From: Spirochaetales bacterium
GTDB taxonomy: Bacteria; Spirochaetota; Spirochaetia; Sphaerochaetales; Sphaerochaetaceae
Reading direction: 5' to 3'
DNA length: 36,069 nucleotides
NCBI GenBank assembly: GCA_012523305.1
Contig: JAAYIV010000077.1
Coordinates: forward strand, 1-36,069
Shown: positions 4,448 through 15,056 of the stretch, in pieces
Numbering within the stretch: position 1 is the first letter of the stretch
How the letters are laid out: each line of letters starts with the position of its first letter
The notes under the pieces: generated by a model
Database searches by the model: none
What the model was told of the DNA's origin: nothing
Seen by the model: only the letters and a program-made list of their open reading frames with translations
Translations under genes and position numbers: made by a program

Positions 4448-5620
4448 TCAATGGGTTATAAAAGTTTCTGCTTTCTGAACTAAATGTTGGGGTATTTTCA
4501 ATGTGTCGAGCGATCGTACCTTCATGCATTTACGAGCTTTCAGAATTCTTCCTACGGAAATCGGCCCTAATCCGGGAACTCGTAACAATTCTTCTTTCGA
4601 CGCCTTGGAAAGCGATACGGGGAAAAATTCAGGGTGTCTGTTAGCCCATAGTTGCTTTGGATCTATGTTGAGATCCAAATTGCCTGCTTGTTCAAATAAC
4701 AGATCATCAAAAGAAAAACCATACTGTCTGAATAAGTAATCGGCTTGATACAATCGGTGTTCCCTTATCAACAACGAACCGTCTTTTCTTCTTGGTTCGA
4801 AAGGGAATAGTGTTTGATCATCAATGTGGTCCGGAAGGATGATCCGATTCTGTTCACCGGGGATTGAAGGATCTCCCAATCCTGATTGATATGCGGAAAA
4901 GTATAATCTGTGAAACGATAGTTTTTTGTACATCGCCCATGTATAGGATAGGATGTCGCGATCTGATTCGTCTGAGGCGCCTACTATGAATTGGCTGGTC
5001 TTGTGTATCTTGGCAAAGGGCGCATCGTTGGCTGTCATGTGCGCTATGTACTTCAACGGTTCGATAATGTCGGTTTCAAACTGTTTCTTTTCTGATAATT
5101 TTGAGAAAAACTTTGCTCCGGGTGTCTCGATATTCAATGATACTGCAGAAGCTAATGAAAGAGCCTTATCAATTGCTGCGGTTGAAGACCCTGGTATTAT
5201 CTTGATGTGCACATATCCACGATATCGATATTTCTTTCGTAAGATTTCAGCGGTAGCAGTCAATTTCTCCATGGTAGCATCAGGACTTCCGATTACACCT
5301 GAACTTAGAAACATGCCGATCAATTTACGCTTTCTTTGAAGGTCCATGAAGAAAGAAGCCAATTCGTCTGGAATCAATCCGACCCGACGGGTATCCATCG
5401 TATTACGCAAAGGGCAATATAAACAATCATTGGTACACACATTTGACATGAGGGTTTTAAGCATGATCCCAGTACCGCCATTTGCCACCGTAACCGGGTA
5501 CAACCAAGTATCACCGGTACTTTTTTTACGGTGTTCGGCAGGATTTTTTGTTCCACATGCACATGACAAATCGTATTGTGCGTCGCGCGAAAGAATATCA
5601 AGCTTTTCTACCACGTTCAT
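4448..5620 (-). CDS. Radical SAM protein with helix-hairpin-helix, DNA modification/repair type
   Basis: This 390-residue protein matches the putative DNA modification/repair radical SAM family recalled as TIGR03916. The cluster-binding motif is C62-x3-C66-x2-C69 (VCTNDCLYC). An extra N-terminal Cys pair (SCACG, residues 20 and 22) is also present. The C-terminus has a helix-hairpin-helix (LLRVPGLGPISVGRIL, about 340-365) that usually binds DNA backbone. The family is normally linked to a uracil-DNA-glycosylase-like partner (TIGR03915); none is beside it here, since the neighbours are fabV and a glycanase. No Shine-Dalgarno precedes ATG 5620. Instead an extended -10 ends seven bases upstream, suggesting a leaderless mRNA. 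The family assignment is from memory of its motifs; the reaction is not known to me. Confidence 0.82.
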   Translation of the reverse strand: MNVVEKLDILSRDAQYDLSCACGTKNPAEHRKKSTGDTWLYPVTVANGGTGIMLKTLMSNVCTNDCLYCPLRNTMDTRRVGLIPDELASFFMDLQRKRKLIGMFLSSGVIGSPDATMEKLTATAEILRKKYRYRGYVHIKIIPGSSTAAIDKALSLASAVSLNIETPGAKFFSKLSEKKQFETDIIEPLKYIAHMTANDAPFAKIHKTSQFIVGASDESDRDILSYTWAMYKKLSFHRLYFSAYQSGLGDPSIPGEQNRIILPDHIDDQTLFPFEPRRKDGSLLIREHRLYQADYLFRQYGFSFDDLLFEQAGNLDLNIDPKQLWANRHPEFFPVSLSKASKEELLRVPGLGPISVGRILKARKCMKVRSLDTLKIPQHLVQKAETFITH

Positions 5621-5669: not shown

Positions 5670-6878
5670 CTAAATGATACGAGGATCTATATCCTCCGAA
5701 TAATTAATCTCATCAAATCCAAATCCATGAATCTTGGCATATTCGGTGATAAATCCTTCCAGGTCACCACCGATGATAGCCTGCCCTTCACTTTGGGCAG
5801 ACCAGAGCAGATGTACAGCTTGTTGCACCGAATCGGACATCTCCCAATCATCGATACGGATTCTGCCTTTTTCATCCAGAGGAATTGATGTACCAGTATA
5901 CAATCGTTCGGAAAATAGACGGTATATTTGATGGATGCATTCTTCGTGGAGATTCAAATCTTTCATCACTCGATAGAGCAAAGCTATATACAACGGGACG
6001 ACCGGGATTACTGCACTTGCCCGAGTGACAAGGGCCTTGTTGACTGATACATAGGCAGACCCATTAACGCTCTGCAATGTTTCATTCAACAATCTTGCGC
6101 TGTTTTCCAAGTCTTCCTTTGCTTTGCCTATAGTTCCCGAACGATAGATCGGATATGTCAATTCTGGTCCGATATATGAATAAGAAACCGTTTTAAAGCC
6201 ATCGGAGAGAAGATTGCATTGCAATAGATATGTGATCCAATCATTCCAGTCTTCCCCGCCCATGACCTTCACGGTTTCTTCTATCTGGCTTTGATCGGCA
6301 GGTTCAACGATTACTTTTGATACCATACCCGTAGTAACATCAACAGATAGCGCGCCATACTGATTGCCAATAGGCTTGATTACTGAGCGATAGGTCGTTC
6401 CGGAGCTGTCTGTCCTTGCAGGAGACGCCAGGCTATAGATCAATAAGTCGATCGTTCCGAAATGCTTGGCAATAAGGGAGGCCACTTCGGCTTTTGTCGT
6501 TTTTGCATACGCATCCTTGAGCACTGAGACAGCCTTTAGTCCATGTGTTTTTGCATATCGTTCGAAAACGGTAGTGTTGTACCATCCAGGCGTCGCTGTT
6601 TTTGTCTCGGATGGCTCTCGTTCAACCGAAACATTGATAGTATCGGCTTTGCCGACACAAGCTGCTACAATCCTTGATGCCAAACCATATCCGGTAGACC
6701 CTCCTACTATGAGGACTTTTTTCGGGAAGAAATTCGTATGTGGCAGTTGATAACGCGTATCAGAGTGTTGCTCAAGCTGCTGACGTACCCAATCAATTTG
6801 GTTTCGCACTGAAAGCTCACATCCTTTAGGATGGGCCGTCAGTGATACATTTCTTAAGATTTTAGGAACAATTACCAT
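5670..6878 (-). CDS. fabV: Trans-2-enoyl-ACP/CoA reductase FabV
   Basis: This 402-residue protein is FabV/TER-like over its whole length. It begins VPKILRNVSLTAHPKGCE, as FabV proteins do, has the NADH-binding GGSTGYGL at 59-66, and has the FabV-specific Y-x8-K pair at Y245 and K254 (YRSGTIGKAK). FabV catalyses the final NAD(P)H-dependent reduction of the elongation cycle. The homologous Treponema denticola TER reduces crotonyl-CoA, so a role in butyryl-CoA formation cannot be excluded. It is the last gene of the fab operon, starting nine bases after fabZ with GGGGG just before ATG. The placement supports a biosynthetic role and implies that no FabI or FabK is needed here. FabV enzymes are typically less sensitive to triclosan (known of the family). 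Confidence 0.95.
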   Translation of the reverse strand: MVIVPKILRNVSLTAHPKGCELSVRNQIDWVRQQLEQHSDTRYQLPHTNFFPKKVLIVGGSTGYGLASRIVAACVGKADTINVSVEREPSETKTATPGWYNTTVFERYAKTHGLKAVSVLKDAYAKTTKAEVASLIAKHFGTIDLLIYSLASPARTDSSGTTYRSVIKPIGNQYGALSVDVTTGMVSKVIVEPADQSQIEETVKVMGGEDWNDWITYLLQCNLLSDGFKTVSYSYIGPELTYPIYRSGTIGKAKEDLENSARLLNETLQSVNGSAYVSVNKALVTRASAVIPVVPLYIALLYRVMKDLNLHEECIHQIYRLFSERLYTGTSIPLDEKGRIRIDDWEMSDSVQQAVHLLWSAQSEGQAIIGGDLEGFITEYAKIHGFGFDEINYSEDIDPRII

Positions 6879-6887
6879 GGATACCCC

Positions 6888-7322
6888 CTATTGTCGTGAA
6901 CCGACAAGACACATCCAAGTAGCTTCCGCAGCCACTCGTCCGTTGACCTTCACGATTCCACTCTGCCGAATCATCACTTGAGAGACCCGAAGATTAGTAA
7001 TTTCGATCACTGCAAGATTTCCGGGGCGAACTTGGTGTCTAAATTTTGCTTTCTCAACAGTACCTAACATAAACAGTGAATCGGAAGGCAATATTCCGAA
7101 CTCCCTCAGTCCCGCACCTCCGCTCTGAGCCATCATCTCAATCAACAGTACCCCCGGAACCACCGGATAATGTGGGAAATGGCCTTTAAAGAATTGTTCG
7201 TCACCTCGAAAAAGATGTTCGGCAATGCAACCATGTTCATCGACGGCAACCAAACGATCCACTAATAGAAATGGTTCACGGTGTGGCAACAATTCTTTAA
7301 TTTCCTGATACTCATCCTTCAT
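6888..7322 (-). CDS. fabZ: 3-hydroxyacyl-ACP dehydratase FabZ
   Basis: The 144-residue hotdog-fold protein carries LLPHREPFLLVD at the N-terminus, then GHFP with catalytic H48 and PGVLLIE with catalytic E62. It dehydrates beta-hydroxyacyl-ACP to trans-2-enoyl-ACP. Length and motifs are standard for FabZ rather than FabA. It lies between fabF and fabV in the same operon. GGAGG is present upstream of ATG 7322 but with a long spacer of about 12 bases, so translation may depend partly on coupling. Confidence 0.95.
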   Translation of the reverse strand: MKDEYQEIKELLPHREPFLLVDRLVAVDEHGCIAEHLFRGDEQFFKGHFPHYPVVPGVLLIEMMAQSGGAGLREFGILPSDSLFMLGTVEKAKFRHQVRPGNLAVIEITNLRVSQVMIRQSGIVKVNGRVAAEATWMCLVGSRQ

Positions 7323-7374: not shown

Positions 7375-8634
7375 TCAGACTCTTTTGAAGATTAACGCAC
7401 CGTTATGACCTCCGAAGCCAAGTGATTCGCTTAATGCATTACGAATACTACCATATAGCCCTTGGTTCGGGACATAATCAAGGTCACATTCTGGATCAGG
7501 GTTTGTTATGTTAAGAGTACAGGGGAAAAATTGATCTCTTAATGCTAGGATTGTTATTATTGCCTCGACCGCTCCTGCCGCAGCAATAAGATGGCTAGTC
7601 ATCGACTTTGTCGATGAAACCTTCAACTTGTATGCATGTTCTTTGAACGCATGCTTGATCGCTTTGGTTTCCATGACATCATTTGCTTGTGTCGATGTTC
7701 CATGGGCATTGATATAATCGACTTCTTCAGGTGCAATGTTGGCCATCTTCATCGCAATTTGCATCGCTCTCGAAGCTCCGGAGCCTTCGGGATCAGGTGC
7801 TGTGAGATGATACGCATCGCAAGTGGCACCATATCCGGTGATTTCACCCAATATCGGAGCCCCTCTCTTTTTTGCATGTTCGAATTCTTCAAGTACTAAT
7901 ATTCCCGAACCTTCTCCGATTACAAATCCATCCCTATCGTTATCGAATGGTCTGCATGCCTGTGTCGGAACATCGTTATAAGCGGTCGAAAGAGCTTGCA
8001 ATCTGCAAAAACCCGATACTGCCAATTCTGTTATGGCTCCCTCAGTTCCACCGGTAATTGCCAGATCGACCATATTACACTTGATTGCTTGGAAAGCTTC
8101 ACCAATCGCATCGGTCCCGGATGCGCATGCTGTCACTTTGGTCAGGCATGGTCCTTTGATACCATACCGGATCGCAATATTTCCAGCAGCTTCGTTTGCA
8201 ATTAATTTTGGAATCGTGAGTGGTGCTACTGCTCGAGGCCCTCTTTCGAATAGTTTCCTCAAATTATCTTCAACTATTTCAAATCCGCCGATACCATTTC
8301 CGATGAACACTCCTGCCGAACAGGGATCAAAACCACCTTCCCCGTTCGGTCCGAGCCGAGCTTGTCCCATCGCCTGCGCGGCGGCATGCATCGCATAGAC
8401 GGTAAAGTCAGCCATCGATCTGAGTTCTTTCCTATCCAACAGGTCGGAAGGGTCAAAATCGTGGATTTCACCGGCTACTTTAGATGGATAATCTGTGCAA
8501 TCAAATTTTGTCAGTACGCCGATACCTGATTTCCCTGCTTTGATATTTTCCCAAAATTCACCTATACAGTGGCCAAGTGGATTAACCGTGCCCATCCCGG
8601 TCACTACTACTCGCCTGCCAAAGTCACAAAACAT
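7375..8634 (-). CDS. fabF: 3-oxoacyl-ACP synthase II FabF
   Basis: The 419-residue condensing enzyme has a Cys-His-His triad: C170 in TACASGT, H311 in NAHGTSTQAND and H348 in KSMTSHLIAAAGA. Lys343 of the KSMT motif is also present. The usual KSMTGHLL is KSMTSHLI here, a mild variation. It condenses malonyl-ACP with a growing acyl-ACP. GGGAGG lies nine bases before ATG 8634, and the gap after fabG is 15 bases. In many bacteria acpP lies just before fabF; it does not here. Confidence 0.96.
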   Translation of the reverse strand: MFCDFGRRVVVTGMGTVNPLGHCIGEFWENIKAGKSGIGVLTKFDCTDYPSKVAGEIHDFDPSDLLDRKELRSMADFTVYAMHAAAQAMGQARLGPNGEGGFDPCSAGVFIGNGIGGFEIVEDNLRKLFERGPRAVAPLTIPKLIANEAAGNIAIRYGIKGPCLTKVTACASGTDAIGEAFQAIKCNMVDLAITGGTEGAITELAVSGFCRLQALSTAYNDVPTQACRPFDNDRDGFVIGEGSGILVLEEFEHAKKRGAPILGEITGYGATCDAYHLTAPDPEGSGASRAMQIAMKMANIAPEEVDYINAHGTSTQANDVMETKAIKHAFKEHAYKLKVSSTKSMTSHLIAAAGAVEAIITILALRDQFFPCTLNITNPDPECDLDYVPNQGLYGSIRNALSESLGFGGHNGALIFKRV

Positions 8635-8649
8635 TGATCTCGCCCTCCC

Positions 8650-9417
8650 TTACATTGCCATGCCGCCGTCAACGGCTATTACCTGTCCGGTAATATAAGA
8701 AGCATCCCCAGAAGCAAGGAACAGTACCGCCTTGGCGACCTCTTCAGGGGTCCCTATTCTTCCTAAGGGAATGTTTTCGCGTAATGAATCTTGAATCTGT
8801 TCGGATAGAATATCTGTCATGGAAGTCTTGATAAAACCGGGGGCTACGATATTGACCCGTACTGATCGGCTGGCTAATTCGCGGGCCAGGCTTTTTGAAA
8901 AGCCGATAATTCCAGCTTTCGAAGCAGCATAATTTGTTTGACCACCATTACCAGTTATTCCAACGATTGAAGACATGTTGATTATCGACCCTGAACGTCT
9001 TGAGGCCATTACCCTGCTGATTTTCCTACAAGTGATAAACATTGCCTTTAAATTCACTTGGAGCACTTCGTCCCATGCTTCATCTTTCATTCTCATGATG
9101 AGGCCGTCACGTGTGATACCGGCGTTATTTACAAGCACATCGATCCAAGAGGCTTCAGCCATCACTGTATCCAAAGCCTGTTCTATCGAATGGTTATCGG
9201 CCATATCACAGGGCACATGCTTCACGTTCCCTGTATGTTCAGCAGCAATTGAGATCCATCTCGATTCATGTTCACTCTGTGAGCGACTTAGGTACCAAAC
9301 CATGTCCCCTTCCTTGATGAATTGTTCGACAATAGCCGCTCCGATGCCTTTCGATCCTCCGGTAACCAATACATTTCTCTTATGTTCCATCGTTGAGTCA
9401 TGATCATTCATCTTCAT
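8650..9417 (-). CDS. fabG: 3-oxoacyl-ACP reductase FabG
   Basis: This classical short-chain dehydrogenase has TGGSKGIG (19-26), NNAG (97-100), N122, S150, Y163 and K167 (YAASK), and VAPGFIKTSM. It reduces beta-ketoacyl-ACP with NADPH. The start is ambiguous: ATG 9417 and ATG 9411 both follow AAGGAG (9427-9422), at spacings of 4 and 10 bases. The gene overlaps the end of fabD by 14 bases with ATG 9417, indicating translational coupling. Position inside the fab operon separates it from the other SDR at 22288. Confidence 0.95.
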   Translation of the reverse strand: MKMNDHDSTMEHKRNVLVTGGSKGIGAAIVEQFIKEGDMVWYLSRSQSEHESRWISIAAEHTGNVKHVPCDMADNHSIEQALDTVMAEASWIDVLVNNAGITRDGLIMRMKDEAWDEVLQVNLKAMFITCRKISRVMASRRSGSIINMSSIVGITGNGGQTNYAASKAGIIGFSKSLARELASRSVRVNIVAPGFIKTSMTDILSEQIQDSLRENIPLGRIGTPEEVAKAVLFLASGDASYITGQVIAVDGGMAM

Positions 9418-10375
9418 TCATCTCCTTGATTGCCATGATGCTCTCAATCTTTTGCATACTTCCTGCAGAAAATACCGGGATAGCATCTGAATAGCTTCTC
9501 CATAACTTTGTGAGTACCATTCCCGGACCTACTTCGAGCAATCCGTTGGTTTCGGTTTTCTGCATGAAGGTTTCTATGGTCTTCATGGCTTGCGTCCATC
9601 GAACTGGATTGGCTAACTGTCTTGCCAAAAGGAGTCGGGCTTGTGATCCACTGGAAATCTGTTCTCCTGATACCGATGAGATTACGGTAATGTTTGGATC
9701 ATTAAACGGAATTGTTTCTAGGAATGATGAAAAAGGTTCCACAGCAGAGTTCAACAAAGGAGTATGAAATGGACCTGAGACTTTCAAAGGTATGATGTTC
9801 CTTACGCCAGCGGCTTTCAGCAGATCGCTCGCTTCATCCAATTCTTGTTTTGCCCCGGCTATTACAACCTGTGTCGGGCTATTGTCGTTCGAACAGTATA
9901 TGTGGTCCAACCTGGATGATGTTACCACTGCTTCGACTTCGGGATAGCTCAAGCCGATCGCAGCCACCATTCCAAGTTCTCCATACAACGAAGAGGAGGA
10001 CCGTATCACCTGTTTCATTAATCTTGCCCGTTCAATGACAATCGTTATTAGGCTCTGATCATCAATTATCTTTGATGTCGCCAATGCTGAAAGTTCGCCC
10101 AGACTAAAACCGGCAACCAATGGAATGAAAATTTGCATCTCATCAAGTACAATGGAGGCGCTACGATTGGCCAAGGTGATAGCCAATTGTGTATTGGTTG
10201 TTTGCTGTAACTCTTCTTGAGATCCTTCGGACAGCAATGTATGCATATTGATTTTCGAACATTCACTGGTGAATTCAAACAGCTGACGTACTGCTTTTGA
10301 CCGTTCGTAGAAATCAAGTGCCATCTGTTGATATTGTGATCCTTGACCCGGATACAGTGCTCCAAAGGTTACCAT
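9404..10375 (-). CDS. fabD: Malonyl-CoA:ACP transacylase FabD
   Basis: The 323-residue acyltransferase carries GQGSQ (10-14), the nucleophile S91 in GFSLGE, the malonyl-binding Arg near 116 (ERARLM) and catalytic H204 in GPFHTPL. The common GHSLGE has Phe in place of His; hydrophobic residues at this site occur in other FabD proteins, so activity is not in doubt. It loads malonyl onto ACP. Its ATG overlaps the fabH stop (ATGGTAA), and its GGAGGT lies inside the last codons of fabH, so the two are translationally coupled. Confidence 0.95.
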   Translation of the reverse strand: MVTFGALYPGQGSQYQQMALDFYERSKAVRQLFEFTSECSKINMHTLLSEGSQEELQQTTNTQLAITLANRSASIVLDEMQIFIPLVAGFSLGELSALATSKIIDDQSLITIVIERARLMKQVIRSSSSLYGELGMVAAIGLSYPEVEAVVTSSRLDHIYCSNDNSPTQVVIAGAKQELDEASDLLKAAGVRNIIPLKVSGPFHTPLLNSAVEPFSSFLETIPFNDPNITVISSVSGEQISSGSQARLLLARQLANPVRWTQAMKTIETFMQKTETNGLLEVGPGMVLTKLWRSYSDAIPVFSAGSMQKIESIMAIKEMNEDE

Positions 10376-11361
10376 ATGATATAATTACCTCCATACGTGA
10401 GGCCAGCTCCGAATCCGACTGTGATGATTTTATTCCCTTTTCGTAACAGCCCTTTTCCACACATTTCACTCATGGCGATCGGTATGGATGCTGAAGAGGT
10501 ATTGGCATATTCCAAGATATTCATATAAAATTTATCAATATCGACTTTTAACCGTTTGGAAGCTGCCATTATTATCCGGCTATTGGCTTGGTGCGGGATA
10601 ATCCAATCGATATCATCGATTGTCAAGTCATTTCGTTCAAGCAATTCTTCGATCACCGAGCCCATTACACGCACAGCAAAATTATAGACAGCCCTACCAT
10701 CCATGTGGATTTTATGCGGATCAGATCCGTCCACGATTGATTGCCTGGATGAACCTCCGCTCGGTATGCATAGATACGATGCTCCGCTCCCCTCGGAATG
10801 AAGTACGCTGTCAACGATACCTGATATTTGACTGTCTCTGGATTCAATAAGCACACAGCCGGCTCCGTCACCGAATAACACACAAGTATCACGATCGGTC
10901 CAATCAGTGATTGCTGAGAGTTTTTCAGCACCGATTACCGCGATTCGCCTCGCTGATTTGCTCATGATCAAACCTTTTGCCACTTCCAATGCATAGATAA
11001 ATCCAGTGCAACCCGCGGCAAGATCGAACGCAGCGATCGGTGTCAGTCCTAATTTGCCTTGAACAACACATGCGGTCGAAGGAAACCCGACAAAATCCTG
11101 GGTCGCTGTTGCAACTATGATTGCATCGATCGTGCACAGATCGATGTTATGGTCGTCTTGCATCTTACGAAGAGCAGCGATTGCAAGATCACTCGTTGCC
11201 ATATCTTCATCGGCTAAGTGTCGGTATTTGATACCGGTATGGGAAAAAATCCACTCATCACTGGTTTCAACTTGGTTCGCCAACTCTTCGTTTGAAACTC
11301 TCCTTGGAGGAACGTAGGCTCCGATGGCCACTATCCCCGCATTGATTGATTGTTGTGTCAA
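10369..11361 (-). CDS. fabH: 3-oxoacyl-ACP synthase III FabH
   Basis: I choose the TTG start at 11361 because GGAGG stands six bases before it and it gives 330 residues, the normal FabH length. The ATG at 11421 would add 20 atypical residues without a ribosome site. From the TTG start the triad is C118 (AAGCTGF), H257 (PHQANSR) and N287 (ANTSSASIP). It condenses an acyl-CoA, usually acetyl-CoA, with malonyl-ACP to start each chain. It is first in the leftward fab operon and diverges from accB across about 175 bases that hold back-to-back promoters. Confidence 0.95.
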   Translation of the reverse strand: MTQQSINAGIVAIGAYVPPRRVSNEELANQVETSDEWIFSHTGIKYRHLADEDMATSDLAIAALRKMQDDHNIDLCTIDAIIVATATQDFVGFPSTACVVQGKLGLTPIAAFDLAAGCTGFIYALEVAKGLIMSKSARRIAVIGAEKLSAITDWTDRDTCVLFGDGAGCVLIESRDSQISGIVDSVLHSEGSGASYLCIPSGGSSRQSIVDGSDPHKIHMDGRAVYNFAVRVMGSVIEELLERNDLTIDDIDWIIPHQANSRIIMAASKRLKVDIDKFYMNILEYANTSSASIPIAMSEMCGKGLLRKGNKIITVGFGAGLTYGGNYIIW

Positions 11362-11437
11362 CTTTGCCCTCCATTCATCATATAGTATCTTCGAACCACA
11401 GCATGGTTCTCCAGTTTTCACATCAACAGCCCTCTAT

Positions 11438-11467
11438 TATTAATTACATTTTATTATTTTTTGTCAA
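11438..11467 (-). promoter_or_regulatory. Promoter of the fabHDGFZV operon
   Basis: A consensus -35 TTGACA (11467-11462) faces left. The -10 is less clear: TTAATA (11443-11438) at 18 bases or TAATAA (11442-11437) at 19 bases. The -35 shares a palindrome with the -35 of the acc promoter. Confidence 0.5.
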
Positions 11468-11474
11468 TATTGAC
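11463..11474. repeat. Palindrome GTCAATATTGAC between fabH and accB
   Basis: A perfect 12-base inverted repeat without a loop. It contains most of both opposed -35 hexamers (TGTCAA on the left, TTGACT on the right, two bases apart), so it may simply result from the back-to-back promoters, or be an operator for a lipid regulator. Confidence 0.6.
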
Positions 11475-11498
11475 TATAAACACATATATCGTTAAAAT
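11470..11498 (+). promoter_or_regulatory. Sigma70-like promoter of the accB-accC-accDA operon
   Basis: TTGACT (11470-11475), 17-base spacer and TAAAAT (11493-11498). Transcription is predicted near 11505, giving a leader of about 33 bases that includes AGAAGGA seven bases before accB ATG. Confidence 0.7.
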
Positions 11499-11537: not shown

Positions 11538-11957
11538 ATGGATAGTTTAGATTTACATACGATAATCGAAGAATTTGAACATAGCACTTTAAGCGAGTTA
11601 GAACTACAATGTGCTTCTTATACAGTGAAATTAAAGCGGGCGAACGAGCCAAACTTGCCCCCGGTCGTCCCTCCATCGCAACAACCGGTAGCTAACCATC
11701 GTGTGACAGAAAACTCGCCGGATATTATTGAATCCCCATTGGTAGGGACTTTTTATCTTACTCCATCTCCCGATGCCCCGCCGTTTATCGAAGTGGGTCG
11801 CACCATAGCTACGGGTGACGTGTTATGCATCATTGAAGCGATGAAGATGATGAATCAACTCCAAGCGGAATTCCCTTGTGAGATAGTGAAGGTATTGGCA
11901 AAGCAAGGCGCGATGGTAGAATTCGGACAACCGTTATTTGAGGTACGCCGGATATGA
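11538..11957 (+). CDS. accB: Biotin carboxyl carrier protein AccB
   Basis: The 139-residue protein has a helical N-terminal region, a Pro-rich linker (about 38-60: PPVVPPSQQP) and a biotinyl domain whose acceptor Lys is K103 in EAMKMMN. It carries carboxybiotin between AccC and the carboxyltransferase in acetyl-CoA carboxylase. It starts the rightward acc operon with AGAAGGA seven bases before ATG. Its stop overlaps the accC start by four bases (ATGA). Confidence 0.96.
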   Translation: MDSLDLHTIIEEFEHSTLSELELQCASYTVKLKRANEPNLPPVVPPSQQPVANHRVTENSPDIIESPLVGTFYLTPSPDAPPFIEVGRTIATGDVLCIIEAMKMMNQLQAEFPCEIVKVLAKQGAMVEFGQPLFEVRRI

Positions 11958-13303
11958 TTCGTTCAATTCTCATCGCTAATCGTGGAGAAATCGCCTTGAG
12001 GATAATCAGGGCTTGCAGGGACCTAGGGATACGGTCTGTGGCTGTCTATTCAAATGCAGACGTTGATTCGCTTCATGTAAAAATGGCAGATGAAGCGGTG
12101 TGTATTGGAGGGCCAACTCCTGCTGACAGTTATCTTAACGGTTCAAATATCATTACTGCAGCATGTCTGACTCGATGTGATGCAATTCATCCAGGTGTCG
12201 GATTTTTATCTGAGAACAGTAGGTTCGCCAAAGCAACTGAAAACTCCGGCCTGATTTTCATCGGCCCGGATTCCGAAACGATAGCACTGATGGGAGATAA
12301 GATTGAAGCTAAGAGAATTGCTAAAGCAATAGGGGTTCCCACCACCATAGGAAGTGAAGGTCCTCTTGCTGATATGCAAACAGCATTGTCATACGCCGAG
12401 GCAGTGGGATACCCGGTAATCCTCAAAGCTGCCGCAGGTGGCGGAGGCAGGGGGATGCGAATAATAGAAAATCGTTCACAGATGCCTGAAATGTTTGCTG
12501 CCGCTACCAAGGAAGCCCTTTCATATTTCGCTGACGGGAATCTCCTTCTGGAAAAATTCATAGGGAATGCCCGTCATGTTGAAGTGCAATTGCTTGCAGA
12601 TTCTTTTGGTAATGTCATTCATCTTGGAGAACGGGATTGTTCGGTACAGCACCATCATCAAAAACTCATTGAAGAGAGTCCGTGTGCAGCACTTGATGAA
12701 AAAACTAAAGTACGGATGACCGATGCGGCAATAGAGATTTTCAAACACATCGGGTACAGAGGTGCCGGTACTGTGGAATTCTTATTATATAACGATGAAT
12801 TTTATTTCATGGAGGTCAATACCCGCCTGCAAGTTGAACATCCAGTTTCTGAAATGGTCTGTGGTATCGATATCGTGCAGCAACAGATACACATTGCCGA
12901 CAAAGAAGCCTTGCCTTTTTCACAAGAAGAAGTAACATTGACCGGTCATGCATTGGAATGTAGGATCAATGCTTTGTCTCCTGGAAAAATTGAAAACTAT
13001 ATTCCTTGTGGCGGCCCTTGGGTGCGAATTGACAGTCATATATACTCACATTACTCTATCGGGTGCCATTATGATCACCTATTAGCAAAGATCATTGTAC
13101 ACACATCACATAGGAACCATAGTATTCGCGTGATGAAACGAGCATTGCAGGAGTTGGTAATCGAAGGAATCGTAACAAACCGCGACCAACAACTTCAAGT
13201 CTTGGACACCATGCAATTCAAGACAGGGCAATTTTCAACCAATCTATTCGATCAGGTTATGTCAGTCCAAAAATCGCAAACCAGGAAGAAAGCCTATGCT
13301 TAG
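11954..13303 (+). CDS. accC: Acetyl-CoA carboxylase biotin carboxylase AccC
   Basis: The 449-residue ATP-grasp enzyme has the N-terminal signature ILIANRGEIALRIIRACRD, the glycine-rich ATP loop GGGGRGMR, and the metal and bicarbonate motif EVNTRLQVEHPVSE (about 287-300). It carboxylates biotin on AccB using ATP and bicarbonate. Length is typical of free-standing AccC. The C-terminal residues overlap the next gene by eight bases, so accB, accC and accDA are translationally coupled and probably made in fixed ratio. Confidence 0.96.
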   Translation: MIRSILIANRGEIALRIIRACRDLGIRSVAVYSNADVDSLHVKMADEAVCIGGPTPADSYLNGSNIITAACLTRCDAIHPGVGFLSENSRFAKATENSGLIFIGPDSETIALMGDKIEAKRIAKAIGVPTTIGSEGPLADMQTALSYAEAVGYPVILKAAAGGGGRGMRIIENRSQMPEMFAAATKEALSYFADGNLLLEKFIGNARHVEVQLLADSFGNVIHLGERDCSVQHHHQKLIEESPCAALDEKTKVRMTDAAIEIFKHIGYRGAGTVEFLLYNDEFYFMEVNTRLQVEHPVSEMVCGIDIVQQQIHIADKEALPFSQEEVTLTGHALECRINALSPGKIENYIPCGGPWVRIDSHIYSHYSIGCHYDHLLAKIIVHTSHRNHSIRVMKRALQELVIEGIVTNRDQQLQVLDTMQFKTGQFSTNLFDQVMSVQKSQTRKKAYA

Positions 13304-15056
13304 AGAAGACAATTGCCCACGTTGTGGTCATGTGATAAAAGGACAAGCTCTCGCATCCGAATGGGGCATCTGCAATGATTGCACCCATCATCTCGATATC
13401 GATCCCCGGCAAAGAATAACACTGCTTACCGATTCAGATTCATTCATCGAGTTTGCCGGTGAACTGACTTCTTCTAATCCGATAGGCATTGATGGGTACG
13501 CTGAAAAGATTGCCCAGAATCAGAAACGCTCGGATCTGACCGATGCTGTAATTACAGGTAGTTGCACCATCGGTTCTTATAAGGCTATTCTCGCCGTGAT
13601 GTCATTCAGGTTCATGGGTGGTTCAATGGGTTCTGTCGTCGGAGAAAAAATCACCCAGGCAATGTTCAAAGGAGCATTAGAACACACCCCCGTCATAATT
13701 TGTACGGCATCGGGTGGCGCAAGGATGCAAGAAGGAATCTTCTCCCTCATGCAGATGGCAAAGACAAGTAGTGCGGCAGCATTACTCGATCGGTTGGGAA
13801 TCCCCTTATTCATCATTCTCACAAACCCCACGACCGGCGGAGTAACCGCTTCGTTTGCCATGCTCGGAGATGTAATCTTAGCCGAACCGGGAGCACTTAT
13901 CGGTTTCGCCGGTCCGCGCGTGATTGAAGGAACGATCGGCGAACGTCTGCCGGCTGGTTTCCAAACTGCCCAATTCCAATTGGAAAGAGGATTTGTAGAT
14001 GCCATCGTAGACAGACGAAAGTTAAAAGAAACGCTAGCGTATCTATTAGGGATGCATCAATACAAGAAGATAAAACGTACGATGAGGAATGTGCCGAAAA
14101 AAGAAGAAACACAAGTAATTTCAGGTGAACAGGGAGATCTCGTATCTTCAGTCGGGACGATGGAGAACATGGTCGATGTCGAAGCTCCATCTCCTTCCAG
14201 ATCGTCATGGGATCGTGTATTGCTGGCAAGGCAACAATGTCGTCCTGGAGTTGACACATACATCAAGTTGATATGTGAAAATTTCATGGAACTTCACGGT
14301 GATCGTTATTATCAGGACGATCCGGCGATGATCGGAGGTATCGGCACAATCGGCGGGTACCAAGTCACGATAATTGGAAATCGAAAAGGATCAAACTTAA
14401 AGGAAAATGTACTACGCAATTACGGGATGAGTAATCCGGAGGGATATCGCAAAGCGTTGCGTTTGGCGAAACAAGCTGAAAAATTCCATCGTCCGGTCAT
14501 TTGTTTTATCGATACGCCCGGAGCCTATCCCGGACTCGAATCAGAACAGCGCGGAATAGGTGAAGCAATCGCCCGGAATCTAAAGGAATTTTCAATGTTA
14601 AAAACTCCTATCATTTGTTTCATCACCGGCGAAGGCGGTAGTGGCGGAGCGTTGGGAATCGGGATAGGAGATAAATTATATATGCTGGAAAATGCTGTCT
14701 ACTCGGTAATTACTCCCGAAGGGTATGCTTCCATATTATTACGTGATCCTTCACGAGCTAAAGAAGCTGCCGAGGCGATGAAGATTACCGCGAGAGATCT
14801 GAAACGATTCAACATCATTCACGATATTATCGAGGAAGTCCCGGAAGGAGCCCATGCAAATCCCGCATACACAGCACAAAAAATCAAAGATACCATCTTA
14901 AAGGATCTTGCCATTTTATGCAGGAAGCCAGCCGATACATTAGTACGATACAGAATTAAAAAAATACGAGGCATAGGCATGGGGAAATATGCCTCATCAT
15001 GGTGGGATCCTTTATTACAGATATTCAGAGACGTACAAAACCGCGTTGAACATTAG
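13296..15056 (+). CDS. accDA: Fused acetyl-CoA carboxyltransferase, AccD-AccA
   Basis: One 586-residue frame contains both carboxyltransferase subunits. The AccD-like half (about 1-262) opens with a four-Cys zinc finger (C7, C10, C26, C29) and has TASGGARMQEG. A linker rich in Glu, Ser and Val (about 263-298) follows. The AccA-like half (about 299-586) has ELHGDR, FIDTPGAYPGL and GEGGSGGALGIGIGD. Both crotonase folds look intact, so this should transfer carboxyl from biotin to acetyl-CoA. In the common bacterial arrangement these are separate genes; the fusion enforces 1:1 stoichiometry. The stop overlaps the stop of the convergent gene by four bases, leaving no room for a terminator. Confidence 0.95.
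   Translation: MLREDNCPRCGHVIKGQALASEWGICNDCTHHLDIDPRQRITLLTDSDSFIEFAGELTSSNPIGIDGYAEKIAQNQKRSDLTDAVITGSCTIGSYKAILAVMSFRFMGGSMGSVVGEKITQAMFKGALEHTPVIICTASGGARMQEGIFSLMQMAKTSSAAALLDRLGIPLFIILTNPTTGGVTASFAMLGDVILAEPGALIGFAGPRVIEGTIGERLPAGFQTAQFQLERGFVDAIVDRRKLKETLAYLLGMHQYKKIKRTMRNVPKKEETQVISGEQGDLVSSVGTMENMVDVEAPSPSRSSWDRVLLARQQCRPGVDTYIKLICENFMELHGDRYYQDDPAMIGGIGTIGGYQVTIIGNRKGSNLKENVLRNYGMSNPEGYRKALRLAKQAEKFHRPVICFIDTPGAYPGLESEQRGIGEAIARNLKEFSMLKTPIICFITGEGGSGGALGIGIGDKLYMLENAVYSVITPEGYASILLRDPSRAKEAAEAMKITARDLKRFNIIHDIIEEVPEGAHANPAYTAQKIKDTILKDLAILCRKPADTLVRYRIKKIRGIGMGKYASSWWDPLLQIFRDVQNRVEH

Follow-up and report, generated by a model that had tools for sequence, protein, structure and literature searches.

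The window (the whole 36,069-nucleotide stretch of DNA that was analysed) carries two divergent operons of fatty-acid synthesis, fabHDGFZV on the minus strand and accB-accC-accDA on the plus strand. Among named records, accDA has its nearest matches in Spirochaetales and Sphaerochaeta genomes, in line with a spirochaete as the source of the window. The intergenic region between the operons holds a 14-letter palindrome, TGTCAATATTGACT (11462–11475), with a 12-base core, GTCAATATTGAC, at 11463–11474. The features of the region, with genes named from NCBIfam matches, are as follows.

5670–6878, minus strand: fabV, enoyl-ACP reductase
6888–7322, minus strand: fabZ
7375–8634, minus strand: fabF
8650–9417, minus strand: fabG
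9404–10375, minus strand: fabD
10369–11361, minus strand: fabH, probable start TTG at 11361 with GGAGGG upstream
11444–11448, minus strand: TGTAA, 13 bases off the leftward −35 box, an extended −10 region and/or a flanking operator half-site (from TGTA in 26/26 junctions and the spacing spectrum)
11462–11475, no strand: palindrome TGTCAATATTGACT, proposed operator core (consensus of relatives TGTCAATATTGACA, from column counts over 26 junctions)
11462–11467, minus strand: −35 box TTGACA of the fab operon, invariant (26/26)
11470–11475, plus strand: −35 box TTGACT of the acc operon, TTGACA in most relatives
11490–11498, plus strand: CGTTAAAAT, rightward extended −10 region (hexamer TAAAAT, spacer 17), in relatives a flanking half-site TGTTATTAT (from the sequence, junction counts and spacing spectrum)
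11538–11957, plus strand: accB
11954–13303, plus strand: accC
13296–15056, plus strand: accDA, carboxyltransferase beta and alpha in a single reading frame

The opposed −35 boxes are separated by two bases only (TA), so that the arrangement described in the initial annotation, TTGACA leftward and TTGACT rightward between fab and acc, is confirmed in the sequence. The right promoter is clearly spaced and reads TTGACT-17-TAAAAT, the CGT preceding its −10 hexamer being part of a conserved extended −10 element, while on the left an invariant TGTA accompanies a loose hexamer. The left edge originally given to the region, 11437, would imply a left −10 element about 19 bases from its −35 box; what relatives conserve is TGTAA at 11448–11444, 13 bases off. 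Translation of fabH most likely begins at TTG 11361, behind GGAGGG, rather than at GTG 11421, and the fab leader would therefore be about 70 nt long.

Two further observations concern the flanking genes, with the caveat that gene calling was mechanical. The fusion of AccD and AccA (13296–15056) is found in the window and in one relative (G001), while most relatives have two open reading frames. A radical SAM protein (4448–5620, rSAM_link_UDG family, scoring under the cut-off) follows fabV in the window and likewise in several relatives, and is a possible tenth gene, as a member of the fab operon.

Conservation of the palindrome between fabH and accB

Taken by itself the palindrome is unremarkable. 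The genome from which the window derives (2.56 Mb) has a single exact copy of the 12-mer, and the two matches with up to two mismatches seen within the window are close to the 2.28 expected. Since length alone carries so little weight, the case for the palindrome rests on its conservation. Junctions between fabH and accB were gathered by protein search, without use of the motif, and 26 non-redundant ones (flanks less than 75% alike) were kept. Eleven of the twelve core positions are identical in all 26; one central base is kept in 25, and the 14-mer ends in a base kept in 24. The central TA, which lies outside both −35 boxes, is nearly as fixed as the boxes themselves, and the right −10 element is less conserved than the palindrome, with 22–24 of 26 at its main positions. 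Conservation extends to the flanks in a spacing-dependent manner: the leftward TGTA is present throughout and always exactly 13 bases from the palindrome, a rightward TGT[ACT]A occurs at 14 bases in 17 of the 26, and the G of the right extended −10 element is found in 25.

The palindrome is thus more conserved than the surrounding DNA and keeps a constant place, as expected of an operator, and its near-invariance bears out the conservation in relatives on which the initial annotation had made its proposal depend. A chance origin is ruled out by the same data. Among 395 genomes of the class, 39 contain the exact palindrome with a downstream TAnnnT, and in the loci fetched from these genomes it lies nearly always at fabH/accB, in families f1, f4, f17 and f26, so that at least four spirochaete families have the palindrome at this location. 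Within the junctions compared it is absent where the divergent partner is fabZ instead of fabH or fabD. One genome (G193, L434:1-530) retains the palindrome with a sugar kinase-like gene, not accB, as the divergent partner of fabH.

Related sites at other genes

Exact copies of the palindrome elsewhere in relatives lie mostly within coding sequence, the exceptions being sites upstream of fadD-like genes and a few others, and two copies in one genome (G036) look like overlapping contig ends, i.e., a single site. The notion of many copies genome-wide was accordingly discarded. A near copy in another relative (G018) pointed to a fadD-like acyl ligase, and fadD-like genes turned out to be preceded by multiple half-sites. 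Their 22 non-redundant upstream regions contain 42 occurrences of TTGACA/TGTCAA (4.2 in dinucleotide shuffles), 18 of them contain TTGACA-N13/14-TGT, and the spacing k in TTGACA-Nk-TGTCAA is 13 or 14 only; the TTGACA-N13/14 elements are mostly oriented towards the genes. The fadD-like gene of the window genome is preceded by TGTCATAATTGACA (other strand TGTCAATTATGACA) and by TTGACA-N13-TGTCAA. On contig 111 of the window genome (L364:8685-15494), several half-sites separate a fadD-like gene from a divergent set comprising ferredoxin, 2-oxoacid:ferredoxin oxidoreductase, acetate/butyrate kinase-type and phosphotransacylase-type genes.

A first control for the fadD-like regions, made on 26 upstream regions, was weak, and because many of these sit inside operons it was redone on 309 intergenic upstream regions. 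TTGACA-N13/14-TGTnA is found in 25 of them, nearly all belonging to fabH, accB or fadD-like genes; as the loci had been fetched around those genes, this proportion does not estimate a frequency for whole genomes, yet the difference from the other regions stands. Whole-genome searches with TTGACA-N13/14-TGTCAA returned about 30 places against about 15 with the reversed pattern, so that single matches are not trustworthy; the matches that repeat are those at fadD-like and oxidoreductase genes. Sites were also found upstream of 2-oxoacid:ferredoxin oxidoreductase genes and, in two families, of beta-carbonic anhydrase. The site therefore recurs upstream of genes of related function, a further property of operators, mainly at fadD-like genes and less often at those for 2-oxoacid oxidoreductase and carbonic anhydrase. 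Of the lipid genes suggested for a search of similar sites in the initial annotation, plsX drops out as a target, since it (PF02504) was not found in 23 palindrome-bearing genomes, under conditions in which control genomes gave matches.

A different setting for the palindrome occurs in two genomes of one genus (L226:1501-1514, L227:1523-1536). Here the exact palindrome, with TGTnA flanks on both sides, lies upstream of an iron alcohol dehydrogenase-like gene, and its far side has no gene start. Sampled genomes of this genus have a different, co-directional fab-acc operon lacking the palindrome.

A TetR-family candidate regulator

In the window's family no conserved regulator is found in the 20-kb neighbourhood of fab and acc, and a regulator encoded there was ruled out on this ground. 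A candidate emerged from a search for TetR proteins in ten genomes across f1, f4, f17 and f26, each of which contains a single ortholog, although all ten bear the palindrome and the co-occurrence is therefore one-sided. The segment ISRPT of the recognition helix is invariant among the orthologs. In two families the fab operon ends with tetR. In G193 it directly follows fabV, giving an operon fabHDGFZV-tetR behind the palindrome, and in G272 it likewise comes last, after fabV, on a contig broken within fabD, while fabH and the palindrome lie at the end of another contig, a separate record. In f1 genomes it lies beside a clpB-like gene, away from fab, as on contig 26 of the window genome. The region upstream of tetR contains TTGACA-N14-TGTAA in the window genome, and related sites in G039. 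The search for a co-conserved regulator, as had been recommended at the outset, has thus yielded one that is present in every palindrome-bearing genome searched and fab-linked in two families.

Four orthologs were compared with protein family profiles. All pass the threshold of the TetR DNA-binding domain (PF00440, 45–52 bits, cut-off 24), and their best NCBIfam match is NF053878, the Bacillus FadR family, with scores of 40–46 bits that fall below its cut-off of 200, for which reason the protein is not classed as FadR itself. An AlphaFold model (mean pLDDT 89) has an overall fold like that of FadR. The first three matches of a PDB fold search are to 6azh, which is a putative fatty-acid regulator from Clostridium perfringens, and to Bacillus subtilis FadR (3whb), with TM values of about 0.73–0.78 for 3whb/3whc at some 20% identity. 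Judged from profile scores and the predicted model, the acyl-CoA-binding FadR of Bacillus is the closest relative in sequence and fold, and as far as can be seen the spirochaete protein may work like it. The likeness to B. subtilis FadR, a TetR-family binder of long-chain acyl-CoA, comprises the TetR fold, a place among the first fold matches, the best NCBIfam match and, among the proposed targets, fatty-acid genes including an acyl ligase. The differences are the low identity, the NCBIfam score far under the cut-off, and the nature of the proposed targets, which here are biosynthetic (fab, acc) in addition to the acyl ligase. Bacillus FadR is known for degradation genes, and its operator sequence is unlike the palindrome found here.

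Proposed joint control of fab and acc

The palindrome is probably the operator of this FadR-like TetR repressor, placed across both −35 boxes and jointly switching off fabHDGFZV and accB-accC-accDA. Control of all six fab and all three acc genes by one repressor, as originally put forward, is the best reading because the palindrome is strictly conserved and marks the fab/acc junction in at least four families, it recurs with its spaced half-sites at other lipid-related genes, and tetR, present in every palindrome-bearing genome searched, is fab-linked in two families. Most likely a TetR dimer would bind TGTCA-ATAT-TGACA, covering both −35 boxes, and further TetR molecules may occupy the flanking TGTnA elements, overlapping both −10 regions. 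We infer TetR as the binding protein, repression as the sign of control, and this order of binding. Long-chain acyl-CoA or acyl-ACP is the presumed ligand that releases or loads the repressor; release by such a ligand would couple elongation with malonyl-CoA supply. With the −35 boxes only two bases apart, a clash between two polymerases is very probable, and the geometry suggests, as did the initial annotation, that they could not load together and that the balance between malonyl-CoA supply and elongation would be set at this point. Counting against the TetR operator, tetR lies apart from fab in the window's family, and the window genome has no second exact 12-mer.

The most serious competitor is a purely promoter-based reading, in which the palindrome is no more than two strong sigma-70 promoters with consensus −35 boxes and extended −10 elements, and polymerase competition would account for any coupling. 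TTGACA-N13/14-TGT also describes a −35 box and an extended −10 element at spacers 16/17, so that the promoter and operator readings overlap and part of this signal may be promoter, not operator, a view in keeping with the gene-facing orientation of the elements upstream of most fadD-like genes. However, promoters by themselves do not account for a nearly invariant central TA that polymerase need not contact, for a right −10 element less conserved than the −35 side, for the rarity of the arrangement in general upstream regions of these genomes, or for the L226 and L227 palindromes, which are flanked on both sides yet have a gene start on one. The operator is additionally favoured by the fixed centre, by the absence of a far-side gene start at these two loci, and by TGTCAA, a poor hexamer, which occupies the −10 place in several fadD-like and oxidoreductase promoters. 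Promoters alone are thus an unlikely explanation.

Less likely still is an operator of some other regulator (MarR, GntR or other), with TetR playing no part in this control although its gene belongs to the fab operon in two families. MarR-type regulators are numerous, and one genus has a MarR-MATE pair adjoining the acc operon, but in a partial check of other regulator families no cluster among the subset of MarR genes fetched covers the whole set of genomes compared, which argues against MarR as a universal regulator; the TetR ortholog, in contrast, is found in 10/10 palindrome-bearing genomes searched and is fab-linked in two families. A dedicated alternative sigma factor reading TTGACA-N13/14-TGTnA, for which the palindrome would be two promoters back to back, would fit the directional arrangement shared by fabH, accB and fadD-like genes and by some of those for 2-oxoacid oxidoreductase and carbonic anhydrase, but is very improbable, as a combination of TTGACA and TGnTAnnnT is nothing unusual for sigma-70 and both the conserved centre and the fab-linked TetR would be left unexplained.

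Under the favoured reading, a TetR repressor on the palindrome, the closest precedents differ in several respects. FabT of streptococci, a MarR-family protein, is one regulator for fab and acc genes, with the differences that protein family and operator are others and that fab and acc form one cluster there and are divergent here. FapR, which is not a TetR protein, shares with the system predicted here the repression of fatty-acid synthesis at an inverted repeat in the promoter region. In Bacillus and Staphylococcus this repressor acts at a 17-bp inverted repeat that lies inside the promoters or immediately downstream of them, and its ligand is malonyl-CoA (PMC5052256). Overlapping divergent promoters likewise place two opposed promoters in one common region, but here the common part is a palindrome made up of both −35 boxes and retained across several families. 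In a search of the open-access literature, no paper was found that deals with how spirochaetes control the transcription of fatty-acid synthesis genes, or with such a switch in them. Because one palindrome constitutes both −35 boxes, a single occupant, be it repressor or polymerase, should act on both pathways, a compact way of tying two operons together. The analysis puts names to a proposed operator and to its candidate regulator and narrows the targets to a short list, and a single purified protein would suffice to test them all.

A broader spirochaete fatty-acid regulon can be put forward more tentatively, and is somewhat less probable than not. In it a FadR-like TetR would act on a row of half-sites doubling as both −35 boxes, and one acyl signal would set fab (acyl-chain synthesis), acc (malonyl-CoA) and, in some lineages, carbonic anhydrase (bicarbonate), 2-oxoacid oxidoreductase (branched acyl-CoA) and fadD (acyl activation).

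A possible further target was noted in G039 (L464:5117-6538), where a protein that by eye resembles nitronate monooxygenase/FabK-like enzymes is encoded behind TTGACA-N13-TGTCAA.
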